Assembly (NCBI RefSeq): GCF_022846655.1
Contig: NZ_AP025667.1
Span: forward strand, 1,463,001 to 1,527,000
Direction of reading: 5' to 3'
Length of the DNA: 64,000 nucleotides
Source of the DNA: Streptomyces seoulensis
GTDB lineage: Bacteria > Actinomycetota > Actinomycetes > Streptomycetales > Streptomycetaceae
Shown: positions 6,102 through 16,217 of the stretch, piece after piece
How the letters are laid out: the number at the start of each line of letters is the position of its first letter
Numbering within the stretch: position 1 is the stretch's first letter
Notes under the pieces: generated by a model
The model's database searches: none
What the model was told of the DNA's origin: nothing
The model's input: the letters and a program-made list of their open reading frames with translations, nothing else
Position numbers and translations under genes: made by a program

Positions 6102-11495
<5,394 letters not shown>

Positions 11496-11499
11496 CGGG

Positions 11500-12189
11500 T
11501 CACCCGGCCAGGGAGATCAGCCGGGTGGCGAGTTCCGCGAAGGGACCGTCACCCGGCTCGCCCTGCACGAAGCCCCGCACCACGGCGGCCATCTCCGGGT
11601 CGAAGGCGGCGCTGACGGCGGCCAGGGCGGCGAAGTCGTGCACGAGCTGGCGTTCCAGCTCCTCGCGCGGGACCCGGCGGCCGTCCAGCCAGATCAGCGC
11701 CGTCGACTCCACCAGCGAGATCCACGAGCGCACCACCAGCTCCAGCCGCGCGGGCGCCTCGGTGACCCCCAGGTGGGAGAGGATCTGCTCGTAGGCGGCC
11801 TGGCGCACGGAGTCGATGAGCGCGTTGGTGGCCGAGGAACCGACCGCCGGACCACCCCGCATCAGCGCGGAGAAACCCGGTCCGTGGTCGTCCACGAAGT
11901 CGAAGAAGCGGGCCATCACCCGCAGCAGCCGGGCGCCGAGCGGGCCCTCGTGCGGCTCCTCGAAGCGGCCCGCCAGATCCTCCGCCGCACGCGTCAACGC
12001 GGCCTCATACAGACTGAGTTTGCCGGGGAAGTAGTGGTAGACCAGCGGGCGTGAGATGCCCGCGGCCGACGCTATCTCGTCGATCGAGACCTCGTCGGGC
12101 GAGCGCCGGCTGAACAGGTCGAGCGCGACCTTGATCAACTGCTGCCGACGCTCCTCGACGCCCATCCTGCGGCGAACCCCGGTACTCAT
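11500..12189 (-). CDS. TetR-family transcriptional regulator
   Basis: 229-aa TetR-type repressor with an N-terminal HTH (EERRQQLIKVALDLFSRR, then ISRPLVYHYFPGKLSLYEAA) and a variable ligand domain. ATG 12189 is preferred; a GTG 30 nt upstream is in frame. It ends 4 nt from the pullulanase stop (convergent). The genes upstream on the same strand encode a flavin/[2Fe-2S] reductase and a putative di-iron protein, so it probably regulates that oxidation system rather than starch use. The effector is unknown. Confidence 0.88.
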   Translation of the reverse strand: MSTGVRRRMGVEERRQQLIKVALDLFSRRSPDEVSIDEIASAAGISRPLVYHYFPGKLSLYEAALTRAAEDLAGRFEEPHEGPLGARLLRVMARFFDFVDDHGPGFSALMRGGPAVGSSATNALIDSVRQAAYEQILSHLGVTEAPARLELVVRSWISLVESTALIWLDGRRVPREELERQLVHDFAALAAVSAAFDPEMAAVVRGFVQGEPGDGPFAELATRLISLAG

Positions 12190-12258
12190 GGGCTCAACCT
12201 TACCGACCGGAAACGACACTTGGACGATCCGCTTCCGCCCCGGTCGCGCTGCGCCGCC

Positions 12259-13320
12259 TCACATGTCCAGGACCAGGCGCTCACCCCGGGCGCGGGACAC
12301 GCAGATCAGCATCGAGTCGGCGCGCTCCCCGTCCGTCAGCAACTCGTCCCGGTGATCCACCTCGCCCTCCAGCACCCGCTGCTGACAGGTCCCGCAGAAT
12401 CCCTGCTCGCAGGAGTAGAGGGTGTCCGGCAGCTCCCGGCGTACCGCCGCCAGCACCGTCGAGTCCGGCGGCACGGTCAACGTCCGCCCGCTGCGCCGCA
12501 GTTCCACCTCGAACTCGGTGTCGTCCCCGGTCGCCGTACGCGGCGCGAACCGCTCCAGGTGCAGCGTGGCCCCCTCGGGCAGCACCCCCTCCACCGCCGC
12601 CATCAGCCCCTGCGGACCACAGCAGTACACGGCCGCGCCCTCGGGGAGCCCGGTCAGCAGCGCGGCCAGGTCGGGGCGCCCGTCCTCGTCCTCGGCCACC
12701 ACCGTGCACCCGTCCCCGACCAGCTCCGCTGCCTCCTTCAGAAACGGCATCGAGGCCCGCGTACGCCCGCAGTACAGCAGCCGCACGTCCGCGCCCTCGG
12801 GCAGGGCCCGCAGCATCGGCAGGACGGGGGTGATGCCGATACCTCCGGCCACGAACACGTACGCGGGCGCCCCCACCAGCGGGAAGCGGTTGCGCGGCCC
12901 GCGCACCTCCAGCTCCATCCCCTCGGTGAGCCGCTCGTGCACCTCGCGCGAACCGCCCCGCCCGTCCGTCACCAGCCGCGCCGCCACCTCGTACGACGAG
13001 GAGTCCGCCGGGTCCCCGCACAGCGAGTACTGCCGCACCAGCCCCGAGGGCAGCACCAGATCCAGATGCGCGCCCGGCTCCCAGGCGGGCAGGCCGGTGC
13101 CCTCCAGCCGGAGCCGCACCACCCCGTCCGCGATCCGCTCGTGGCCGGTCAGCCGCAGCCGCAGCGCCCGCGAGCGGGGACGCCCGGAGACCGGCGGGTC
13201 CAGCGCGGGCATCGGCCACAGCGGCGACCGGCGCACCCGGCTCCGCAGCGCCCGTCGGGTCAGCAGCCCGGCGCCCACGAGCAGCGCCGCGGTGACGGCC
13301 GACCTGGTCCGCCTAGGCAT
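12259..13320 (-). CDS. FAD/NAD(P)H reductase with C-terminal plant-type [2Fe-2S] ferredoxin (PDR/VanB type)
   Basis: 353-aa electron-transfer protein. An N-terminal hydrophobic stretch (~9-22) may anchor it to the membrane. Then come a flavin-binding domain (RQYSL, 96-100), a nucleotide-binding domain (GGIGITP, 159-165; CCGPQG) and a [2Fe-2S] domain with ligands C304, C309, C312 and C340. Such proteins pass electrons from NAD(P)H to an oxygenase partner. Its start overlaps the 3' end of the next gene upstream (13313-14215) by 8 nt, so the two are translationally coupled. The neighbour's di-iron ligand pattern makes it the likely electron acceptor. Confidence 0.9.
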   Translation of the reverse strand: MPRRTRSAVTAALLVGAGLLTRRALRSRVRRSPLWPMPALDPPVSGRPRSRALRLRLTGHERIADGVVRLRLEGTGLPAWEPGAHLDLVLPSGLVRQYSLCGDPADSSSYEVAARLVTDGRGGSREVHERLTEGMELEVRGPRNRFPLVGAPAYVFVAGGIGITPVLPMLRALPEGADVRLLYCGRTRASMPFLKEAAELVGDGCTVVAEDEDGRPDLAALLTGLPEGAAVYCCGPQGLMAAVEGVLPEGATLHLERFAPRTATGDDTEFEVELRRSGRTLTVPPDSTVLAAVRRELPDTLYSCEQGFCGTCQQRVLEGEVDHRDELLTDGERADSMLICVSRARGERLVLDM

Positions 13321-14215
13321 CGTGCTCCGCCTTCTCCGCGGCCAGCGCCGCCGGGGACGAGGCCAGGTAGGCGACCGCCTGCGCGGTCGAGCCCTCCTGG
13401 GACGGGTGGTAGGCCCGGCCGAGATAGCGCGGGATGGACTTGAGCAGGGCGCCCGTGGCGGGCAGCGTGCCCCGGCGGCCGCTCGTGTAGAACTCCCGGA
13501 ACGACGCCTTGCCGTCCACCAGCGTCGGGTCGTTCTCCATGAAGAACCGGGCCCCGCGCTGCCAGAGGAACATCAGCGCCGCGAACGCCACCGCCCAGGT
13601 CCGCACCCGGCGCCAGTAGTCGCCGTCCACGTGCATGAACAGGTCGAAGGCGACCGAGCGGTGCTCGACCTCCTCCGCGCCGTGCCAGCGCAGCAGGTCC
13701 AGCATGGTCGGATCGGCGCCCCGCCGGTCCAGCTCGTCCGCGTTGAGCACCCAGTCGCCGAGGAACGCCGTGTAGTGCTCGATCGCCGCGATCACCGCGA
13801 TCCGCTCCAGCAGCCACCAGCGGCGCGCCCGGCCAGGGGGCAGCGTGCGGTCCCCGAGCAGCTTCTCGAAGAACCAGTCGACCTGCGCGGTGTACGGCGT
13901 CGGGTCGAGCCCCTGCTCGCGCAGATGCGGCAGCACCTCGTCGTGGGCCTGGGAGTGCATCGCCTCCTGCCCGATGAACCCGATGACGTCCTCGCGCAGT
14001 CGCTCGTCCCGGATCAGCGGCAGCGCCTGCTTGTACACATGGACGAACCACCGCTCGCCGGCGGGCAGCAGCAGATGCAGCACATTGATGGTGTGCGTGG
14101 TGAAGGGGTCGCCCGGCACCCAGTGCAGCGGGGTGTCCTCCCAGGCGAAGGACACCTTGCGCGCCTTCAGCGGGATGCGCTCGGCCGCCACCGGCCGGGC
14201 CTGCTTGTTAGACAT
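13313..14215 (-). CDS. PF10118-type 'metal-dependent hydrolase' with AurF-like di-iron ligand pattern
   Basis: 300-aa predominantly helical protein of the family usually annotated as predicted metal-dependent hydrolase. The residues read as a four-helix di-iron site: E54; E84xxH87 (GQEAMHSQ); E146 (EHYTAF); H178 and E182xxH185 (WHGAEEVEHRS). Order and spacing parallel the seven ligands of AurF-type N-oxygenases, so an oxygenase is a better reading than a hydrolase. The overlapping reductase gene supports that. ATG 14215 is chosen as the start of family-like sequence; no good Shine-Dalgarno is visible. The substrate is unknown. Confidence 0.75.
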   Translation of the reverse strand: MSNKQARPVAAERIPLKARKVSFAWEDTPLHWVPGDPFTTHTINVLHLLLPAGERWFVHVYKQALPLIRDERLREDVIGFIGQEAMHSQAHDEVLPHLREQGLDPTPYTAQVDWFFEKLLGDRTLPPGRARRWWLLERIAVIAAIEHYTAFLGDWVLNADELDRRGADPTMLDLLRWHGAEEVEHRSVAFDLFMHVDGDYWRRVRTWAVAFAALMFLWQRGARFFMENDPTLVDGKASFREFYTSGRRGTLPATGALLKSIPRYLGRAYHPSQEGSTAQAVAYLASSPAALAAEKAEHDA

Positions 14216-14294
14216 GGCGTCAATGTACTGAGGGGTAAGCCGTCTGAGAACCCCTGTGCACCGCCTTGTTCGGCAAGCTGTCAGCAAGCGGCCG

Positions 14295-16217
14295 TCAGCG
14301 CAGTCCGCTGATCCTGCGCCCGCCCTCCAGCGTGCCCGCCAACTGGGCCTGGGCGCCCTGCTCGGCCTTGGCCACCAGCAACTGCCCCTGCCCGGAAGCG
14401 GTGACGCCGCCCGACGACCGGATCGAGGTCACGCCCCGGCTGCCCGCCGCCAGCAGGTACCAGTGGCCGCCGCTCGACTTCCACAGCACCCCGGCCAGCA
14501 CCTGCGGATCGCGCGGACCGCACGCCGTGGTGTCCGTCGCCTTGGCCACGACCGCCCCGGCCGGCCCGCCCGGCGTGCGGAACTGCGCCAGCGCGGCCGT
14601 GCCGTCGCCGCGCCAGGTCTCGGCCCGCGTGCACACCCATTCCCCGTCGCCGCTCGCGTCCGGCAGCGGCTGCTCGGCGAACGCCCAGGAGTTCACCGAG
14701 CGCACCCCGGCCGACCGCTGTGCCGCCAGCGAGCAGGCGAACGGCGCCCAGGCGCGCAGCCCCTCGGCCCCGGTCGCCTCGCCGGCCGAGCCCGGCCGGC
14801 CCGCGGTGAGGTGGGCGGGCACCAGCTCGCCCAGGTCGGTGGAGAGCTGGGTCCCGGAGCCGTCCGTGAGCTGGAGCACGTGCCACGAGGTGCAGTCGCC
14901 CGCCCGCAGCGCCGGACTGGCCAGCGGGGAGGTGACTCCGTCGGTGAGGGTGAGCGCGCCCGGCGCCGAGTCCGGCTTGGTCAGGTCCCGCTCGGCCGCC
15001 TTCTTCACCCAGGGCGCGGTCAGATAGCGGACGTTGCCGTCGGAACGGCCGAGCACCAGCGCGCTCGCCTCGGCGCCGGACGCGCCGTCCACGCGGGCGA
15101 AGTCGAGGGCCGCGCCCTCGGTGCCGTTCCTCGGCTCGGCGTAGCGGGCGATGCGCAGGCCGTCGTAGAGGATCACCACGCGGGCCGCGTCCACCTCGCC
15201 CGCGTACAGCAGTTGGGGCGGTCCGGCGGGGCCGCCGGTGAAGGTGCCGGGGGTCGCCGAGACGCGGACGGTGGCGCCGGGGCGGGCCCAGACCGCCAGG
15301 GCCCGGCGCAGCAGGCCGTCGTCGCCGGTGAGCGGGCCGCGCGCGGGCCAGACGGAGAAGTCGGTGCGCGCCGAGGTCTTCCACGCGGCCGGTGCCACCC
15401 GCTGCACCTGGCCGGGGTCGAGCGCGGCCATCGCGGCCGGGTTCTCGGCGTAGGCGGGCGCGGCGGCGCCGTCCGGGCCCCAGCCGCCGCCGGGCAGCGC
15501 GACCAGCGCGCAGGCCACCGCGAGCGCGGCGGCGGCGGCCAGTGCCGCCTTGGTGTGCTGGCGGCGCCGCATCAGATCGGTGGGGCGGGCCTGGAGCGAG
15601 CAGGCGTCGAACTCGGGGGAGGCGAGCAGCGCGTACTGCGCGGGCACGCCGTTCGCCTCGGCCAGCGCGGACTCGGTACGGGTGACCCCGGCGGCCTTGA
15701 GGGTCCTGCGTACGTCGTCGTCCGCCAGCCCCTCCAGGCCGCGCAGGACGTAGGCGGCGCGGGCCGGGCCCGACAAGGCCGACAGCCGCTGGTCCAGGGC
15801 GAGTTCGTCGGCGCCGCCGGAGCGCGGGAAGAGCCTGAGGCCCCACACCTGGGGGAGCGGGGCGGGGAGCTGGGACAGCTTGGGCAGCCCCTTGCGCGGC
15901 CCGGACGCCTCCAGCGCGGTCCGCAGCACCCGCAGCCGCACGAAGGCGTAGCCCGGGTCGCCGTCGCGGCCGGTCGACTGGGCCGGGATCAGCGCGCGCT
16001 GCTTGCGGCCGCGCGGCAGGGCGCGCTGGGCCAGGGCGTGTGCGGTCAGGACCCGGCGCCCCCGGCCGAGGGTGGGCGGAAGCACCAGATAGGCGAGCCG
16101 GACCAGCCGCGGGTAGTGCTCGACGAGCGCGGCCTCGGCCTGGCCGACGTCGACGGCCGGGTCCTGGGTCCGGGAGGAGGCGGGTGCGTGACGGTGGGCT
16201 ACATCCTGTGACTGCAC
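14295..16217 (-). CDS. Membrane-anchored protein with sigma-factor-like cytoplasmic N-terminus
   Basis: 640-aa protein of unknown function. The first ~200 residues resemble ECF sigma-70 regions: VEHYPRLVRLAYLVLPP is like region 2, and LSALSGPARAAYVLRGLEGL followed by a short helical repeat is like region 4. One transmembrane segment follows (~222-242) and then a ~400-aa extracytoplasmic part without a domain I recognise. GTG 16217 is the first start; its ribosome site is poor. The topology resembles membrane-tethered regulators, but the DNA-binding residues appear degenerate, so transcriptional activity is uncertain. No obvious operon partner. Confidence 0.7.
   Translation of the reverse strand: MQSQDVAHRHAPASSRTQDPAVDVGQAEAALVEHYPRLVRLAYLVLPPTLGRGRRVLTAHALAQRALPRGRKQRALIPAQSTGRDGDPGYAFVRLRVLRTALEASGPRKGLPKLSQLPAPLPQVWGLRLFPRSGGADELALDQRLSALSGPARAAYVLRGLEGLADDDVRRTLKAAGVTRTESALAEANGVPAQYALLASPEFDACSLQARPTDLMRRRQHTKAALAAAAALAVACALVALPGGGWGPDGAAAPAYAENPAAMAALDPGQVQRVAPAAWKTSARTDFSVWPARGPLTGDDGLLRRALAVWARPGATVRVSATPGTFTGGPAGPPQLLYAGEVDAARVVILYDGLRIARYAEPRNGTEGAALDFARVDGASGAEASALVLGRSDGNVRYLTAPWVKKAAERDLTKPDSAPGALTLTDGVTSPLASPALRAGDCTSWHVLQLTDGSGTQLSTDLGELVPAHLTAGRPGSAGEATGAEGLRAWAPFACSLAAQRSAGVRSVNSWAFAEQPLPDASGDGEWVCTRAETWRGDGTAALAQFRTPGGPAGAVVAKATDTTACGPRDPQVLAGVLWKSSGGHWYLLAAGSRGVTSIRSSGGVTASGQGQLLVAKAEQGAQAQLAGTLEGGRRISGLR

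Follow-up and report, generated by a model that had tools for sequence, protein, structure and literature searches.

The 64,000-nucleotide (nt) stretch of Streptomyces seoulensis contig NZ_AP025667.1 analysed here (the window) carries on its minus strand three consecutive genes which probably constitute a two-component di-iron monooxygenase, plausibly an alkene epoxidase, under putative local control by a TetR-family regulator. The first of the three open reading frames (ORFs) lies at 13313..14215, starts with an ATG at 14215 and encodes a 300-amino-acid (aa) protein of the Pfam family PF10118 ('metal-dependent hydrolase'), characterized by its ORF, Pfam, an AlphaFold2 model and structural matches. 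It is followed by a gene for a reductase of the phthalate dioxygenase reductase (PDR)/VanB type (12259..13320, 353 aa), recognized by Pfam and by its relatives in the Protein Data Bank (PDB), and by the TetR gene (11500..12219, 239 aa; Pfam TetR_N and TetR_C_46). The PF10118 and reductase ORFs overlap by 8 nt (13313-13320), and 39 nt separate the reductase gene from the TetR gene; both the overlap and the downstream regulator had been described in a first-pass annotation of the sequence and were confirmed. The central idea of that annotation, an oxygenase behind a hydrolase label, is right in kind: we put the probability that a di-iron oxygenase with its reductase is the function of this locus at roughly 0.8.

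The 300-aa protein matches the PF10118 profile with an E-value of 2.3e-79 (267 bits, against a gathering score of 33.2), and the Pfam scan listed no further family at E<=1. PF10118 is present in 124 of 199 Streptomyces genomes, and at least 4602 significant matches were found among 8000 candidates scored. The label therefore matters, since thousands of genes belong to this family.

Candidate ligand residues and predicted fold

The seven residues proposed earlier as iron ligands stand at the claimed positions, all encoded on the minus strand: E54 in helix 1 (codon 14054..14056), E84 and H87 in the helix 2 motif Q83-E84-x-x-H87 (13955..13969), E146 in helix 3 (13778..13780), and H178, E182 and H185 in the helix 4 motif H178-x-x-E181-E182-x-E184-H185 (13661..13684). 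E54 lies level with E84 in the hairpin of helices 1 and 2, and E146 level with H178/E182; for these two candidates the placement at the site is a level-in-hairpin argument only.

All seven residues are identical in four overlapping sets of 12, 48, 84 and 91 sequences (12/12, 48/48, 84/84 and 91/91), and the search for mutable ligands, which the first-pass annotation had suggested across PF10118, found none in these sequences. The largest set contains several relatives with only about 20% identity to the window protein, and includes plasmid-collection copies from Burkholderia, Pseudoalteromonas, Acinetobacter, Pseudomonas and Nostoc. Q83, a presumed second-sphere residue, and E181 are invariant in the same 91 sequences; E184, F80 and W177 are identical in 84/84 and H91 in 83/84. 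Sequence and predicted helix positions together give the candidate ligand series E, ExxH, E, ExxH on helices 1-4 in all 91 relatives. The pattern E..H-(40-110)-H...E..H occurred in 87/87 PF10118 genes and in 0/704 other script-called genes of the fetched loci. Since the seven residues are identical in every sequence set and their pattern is absent from the other genes, chance does not explain them.

The AlphaFold2 models of the window protein and of a far relative reached predicted local distance difference test (pLDDT) scores of 94.4 and 90.9, respectively, and predict a four-helix dimetal bundle. All structural matches listed for both models (best 50 each) are dimetal ferritin-like proteins, and neither a heme-oxygenase-like nor a hydrolase chain occurs among them. 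Ribonucleotide reductase R2, R2lox, MMOH and CmlI are among the matches listed, with R2 and R2lox ranking among the best; AurF joins them for the far relative's model. Sequence searches of the PDB were less productive: the single PF10118 protein retrieved nothing at E<=10, and two PF10118 profiles each gave three weak rows (lysozyme, a designed protein, and Mce3R or BesC, the BesC match at E 0.51), which we treated as noise.

Electron donors and epoxide-hydrolase-like neighbours

Pfam places a flavin domain at about residues 57-146 of the reductase, an NAD domain at about 156-244 and a [2Fe-2S] domain at 274-344, the latter two above the Pfam cut-off and the flavin domain just below it. Of the FAD, NAD(P) and [2Fe-2S] motifs annotated earlier, the NAD and [2Fe-2S] assignments held, as did a flavin domain below threshold; flavin adenine dinucleotide (FAD) itself is probably a wrong assignment. 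Among solved structures, the reductase is closest to P450 chains that carry a fused reductase (6kbh, 6laa) and to the phthalate dioxygenase reductase 2PIA (E 1.3e-51), and the order flavin-NAD-C-terminal [2Fe-2S] fits the PDR class. As this class carries flavin mononucleotide (FMN), the cofactor is probably FMN rather than FAD. The best NCBIfam match, PaaE, is far under its cut-off (82 of 420.8 bits).

Within Streptomyces, the reductase is the next gene on the same strand in 80/80 PF10118 loci. A comparison of 25 Streptomyces genomes by hand found a reductase of at least 61% identity in 15, always within about 125 nt of a same-strand PF10118 match; the remaining ten comprise six that lack PF10118 and four with one other copy of it. 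Beyond the main Streptomyces locus, we selected, from all those found, 80 loci (79 from other genera plus a second Streptomyces copy, L139) with 83 PF10118 genes, 48 of them close (at least 38% identity to the window protein) and 35 distant. A PDR-type reductase lies on the same strand within 2.6 kb of 35/48 close genes and of 0/35 distant ones. Eight of the 13 close genes without it adjoin a 62-aa ferredoxin and a Pyr_redox/Reductase_C ferredoxin reductase (called by Pfam for three reductases and one ferredoxin, by similarity for the others), and five have neither. In a tree, 53 close rows form one supported clade, comprising 38 with a PDR-type reductase, eight with the ferredoxin pair (a single clade), two with an FMO-type neighbour and no such donor, and five with none. 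The distant genes adjoin FMO-like genes (8), short-chain dehydrogenase/reductase (SDR) genes (3), Zn-alcohol dehydrogenase genes (3) and, in single cases, acyl-CoA dehydrogenase or esterase genes.

Gene neighbourhoods thus support the reductase as a co-inherited partner of the PF10118 protein, in line with the role given to it in the first-pass annotation. The term 'self-sufficient' used there does not apply, as the system should consist of two components, the PF10118 protein and a separate reductase. A membrane anchor in the reductase was considered and dropped, as the hydropathy cut-off was passed by 23 of the 68 Streptomyces N-termini that the script located. Multiple PF10118 copies also occur: one actinobacterial locus (L137, 4793-16422) carries three PF10118 genes, together with another, short match, among FMO-like and SDR genes, and two chromosome-sized Acinetobacter baumannii records of the plasmid collection (H8, H9) have nine PF10118-like places each.

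An alpha/beta-hydrolase resembling epoxide hydrolases, either free or as an EphD-like hydrolase-SDR fusion, adjoins 25/48 close PF10118 genes, and 20/48 have both this neighbour and the PDR-type reductase. Of 29 aligned hydrolases, 28 (the 25 neighbours of close genes, one each from Dietzia and Burkholderia, and a copy in the S. seoulensis genome) keep HGxPD, HDWG with its Asp nucleophile, a His-Trp pair and two conserved Tyr, residues which we take to be catalytic; the 29th, beside a distant PF10118 member (L227), matched only elsewhere in the query. The gene row on Dietzia plasmid pDK313-58 reads M24 - fusion SDR - PF10118 - PDR/VanB - TetR, and in a Burkholderia arboris record the hydrolase-SDR fusion directly precedes PF10118. 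On a Rhodococcus fascians plasmid (L246), the row TetR - PF10118 - PDR/VanB continues with a protein of an unrelated fold, a limonene-1,2-epoxide-hydrolase domain (7012-7830; PF07858, E 7.6e-15).

The fused neighbours of about 580-595 aa have the domain order of mycobacterial EphD, an epoxide hydrolase-SDR fusion; genes of this type adjoin PF10118 in relatives, outside the window operon. PMC7998700 describes that the N-terminal domain of EphD cleaves 9,10-epoxystearate and that EphD modifies epoxymycolates.

The S. seoulensis genome itself encodes one EphD-like fusion (L239; G000:C1:149850-151610), far from the locus and lacking a PF10118 neighbour. It is 78% identical to the fusion beside the second Streptomyces PF10118 copy and is perhaps the remnant of a lost fusion-PF10118 pair. 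Four small proteins encoded upstream of PF10118 genes were also considered as limonene-type epoxide hydrolases and rejected, all four lacking a Pfam match. A gene of the M24 peptidase fold heads the row fusion - PF10118 - reductase - TetR in two lineages (L240, 30-896; L125, 7709-8614).

Regulator and control region

The TetR gene was found in 78/80 Streptomyces loci; it is absent from L055 and L080, the latter of which ends early, and in L083 it is found 2 kb farther away. Its solved close relative is 2QIB (E 9.3e-120). Upstream of the PF10118 start codon, we compared 73 stretches, from the window and 72 of the 80 Streptomyces loci (the other eight were dropped, as the script did not locate the start). 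Strong conservation covers the 22 bases ahead of the ATG (TACCCGTCAGTACATTGACGCC-ATG), with 17/22 positions kept in at least 67/73 stretches and the weakest, -17, in 50/73; the region further upstream is variable. These bases include the imperfect palindrome CCTCAGTACATTGACG (Streptomyces consensus CGTCAGTACATTGACG; 16 bp, 14218..14233, minus strand), which spans -18 to -3 of the start codon and represents a putative TetR operator. Its inner 14 bases occur in a single copy, with at most one mismatch, in 76/80 loci. Four of the 73 stretches lack the palindrome core, and for two of these (L033, L041) a wrong start was apparently chosen by the script; ahead of PF10118 in 13 other loci, no such site was found.

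Within the palindrome, the -10-like hexamer TACATT (14222..14227, minus strand; 70-72/73 kept per position) stands 6 nt ahead of the ATG. Because this hexamer sits at the -10 place and no Shine-Dalgarno sequence was seen by eye before the ATG, the PF10118 transcript could be leaderless, and the putative operator would then overlie its promoter. A sigma-70 consensus scan upstream of PF10118 found no pair, and as a single strand the palindrome stretch forms no strong hairpin. At no more than one mismatch, the palindrome has two matches in the S. seoulensis genome, one here and one inside a gene, so that TetR control is probably local to the operon. A wider regulon was rejected: up to two mismatches gave 13 matches in this genome, compared with 7 for a reversed-pattern control. 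TetR would repress the operon at the palindrome until substrate or product releases it; inducible control is plausible, given the single conserved palindrome immediately ahead of the start codon. Upstream of the PF10118 gene, the window encodes a 640-aa protein (14295-16217, minus strand) which is matched in 72/80 Streptomyces loci and for which the Pfam scan gave no match above noise.

Proposed function and known dimetal enzymes

The catalytic steps that we infer follow from what is established for di-iron oxygenases and PDR-class reductases. The PF10118 protein would bind two irons (or Fe/Mn) in its ferritin-like four-helix bundle through E54, E84, H87, E146, H178, E182 and H185. NAD(P)H would reduce the flavin, likely FMN, of the reductase, and electrons would then pass via its [2Fe-2S] cluster to the diferric site. 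Once diferrous, the site could bind O2 and oxygenate a hydrophobic substrate by way of a peroxo or high-valent species.

Alkene epoxidation appears to be the likeliest reaction, since epoxide-hydrolase-like enzymes adjoin the gene in many relatives and two unrelated epoxide-hydrolase folds occur beside the oxygenase-reductase pair; we propose it tentatively, at somewhat less than even odds. Two qualifications apply: only one case of the second fold was seen, and neither type of epoxide hydrolase is encoded in the window operon. The same di-iron core might instead hydroxylate C-H bonds of, or desaturate, a lipid or terpenoid, with the hydrolase-like neighbours serving other substrates. Predicted fold and partners fit this chemistry equally well; MMOH, a hydroxylase, is among the structural matches, the SDR, Zn-alcohol dehydrogenase, acyl-CoA dehydrogenase and esterase genes beside some family members would be expected for an alcohol product, and the window operon lacks an epoxide hydrolase. 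However, the hydrolase-like genes beside 25/48 close relatives retain their catalytic residues, and the unrelated fold provides one further case, which leaves hydroxylation or desaturation possible, though somewhat less likely than epoxidation.

In a more speculative extension that we consider possible yet doubtful, PF10118 could be an extensive and so far unrecognised group of alkene epoxidases, each a single di-iron chain. One active site would be combined with swapped electron donors (either a PDR-type reductase or a ferredoxin with its ferredoxin reductase) and with swapped epoxide hydrolases of unrelated kinds (EphD-type fusion, free alpha/beta hydrolase or limonene-epoxide-hydrolase type); the boldest form of this idea is that an enzyme of the group produces lipid epoxides in actinobacteria that make mycolates, in which EphD opens epoxylipids. 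In the open-licence literature searched, mostly at the level of titles and the openings of abstracts, we recognised no assignment of PF10118 to di-iron oxygenases. At least one screen (PMC8960859) placed a PF10118 group among candidate proteases, and S. coelicolor SCO2223, a presumed orthologue, is mentioned in expression tables only. Were the family to consist of di-iron oxygenases, it would newly provide small, two-component catalysts for oxygen insertion, and many actinobacteria would have a concrete candidate for the oxidation that precedes their epoxide hydrolases.

An oxidase or radical-type dimetal protein, such as an R2lox-like enzyme or a halogenase of the CylC/NocO type, is an unlikely alternative to monooxygenation. 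According to PMC12101540, seven of nine active-site residues of these halogenases fall in the motifs QExxH and HxxDExxH, Gln takes the place of AurF D135, and Ala at any of the nine residues abolished chlorination. Compared by these published motifs only, the PF10118 protein has QExxH and HxxxExxH in common with them, and R2 and R2lox are among its best structural matches. Yet the halogenases' HxxDExxH reads HxxEExEH in PF10118, with Glu at the Asp place in 91/91, the adjoining dedicated NAD(P)H reductase suits multi-turnover oxygenation, and no carrier-protein gene was found among 38 selected neighbours scanned.

N-oxygenation in the manner of AurF and CmlI is improbable, despite a close likeness in pattern. 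Both enzymes have the predicted fold and the order E, ExxH, E, HxxxExxH in common with PF10118, and both are among the structural matches. In AurF, counting residues from the printed sequence range, H223-x2-D226-E227-x2-H230 equals the spacing H178-x2-E181-E182-x2-H185, the set of three His and four carboxylates with H-x3-E-x2-H recurs as a sequence pattern, and D135-E136-x-x-H139 is followed four residues on by H143, as Q83-E84-x-x-H87 is by H91. D135, H139, E196, D226 and H230 are also named in PMC12101540. The ligand order and helix 4 spacing noted in the first-pass annotation therefore do equal those of AurF; membership in the AurF family (PF11583) does not follow and, by profile, is absent, as Pfam listed no PF11583 match at E<=1 and profile-profile comparison gave a probability of 5% (hhalign, E 0.0077; 3.6% in a second comparison), with a PF11583 profile built from 16 actinomycete proteins whose own match to AurF was weak (E 0.32). 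This weak alignment lines up the helix 2 ExxH with that of the PF11583 proteins; un-masked, it puts E54, E84xxH87 and H178/E182/H185 on AurF-family motifs, though not E146, and global hhalign of the two profiles returned nothing. With a weak profile match and E146 off the motif, the sequence link is suggestive only. An invariant Gln83 (91/91) replaces the second-sphere Asp135, so that PF10118 joins the halogenases' Gln to AurF's seven-ligand pattern; conserved E184 and W177, the adjoining PDR-type reductase and the redox- and epoxide-type neighbours in relatives are further differences, and no evident amine-pathway gene was found among the 38 neighbours. The S. seoulensis genome separately encodes two PF11583 proteins (G000:C1:5479098-5479922 and 2947177-2947986).

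A metal-dependent hydrolase, finally, is very unlikely: the Pfam and NCBI names are all that favours it, but the predicted di-iron oxygenase fold, the ExxH pairs of ferritin-like type and the conserved partners for electron transfer, for which a hydrolase has no use, indicate that the label, as suspected at first pass, is very probably wrong.

Among established systems, soluble methane monooxygenase (sMMO), phenylacetyl-CoA epoxidase and isoprene monooxygenase combine a di-iron bundle with a flavin/[2Fe-2S] reductase, as proposed here, and MMOH of these multi-subunit epoxidases and hydroxylases is among the structural matches listed for the PF10118 model. In contrast to sMMO-type systems, the window operon encodes a single hydroxylase chain, with no gene for a coupling protein or beta subunit, and its reductase has the order flavin-NAD-[2Fe-2S]. 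Of the heme-oxygenase-like dimetal oxygenases (SznF, BesC, UndA), SznF also has three His and four carboxylates as ligands (PMC13108848), whereas the PF10118 models match ferritin-like bundles among the matches listed. The PF10118 family looks like a separate branch of the ferritin-like di-iron oxygenases, akin to AurF in its ligand pattern and distinct from it in family membership.

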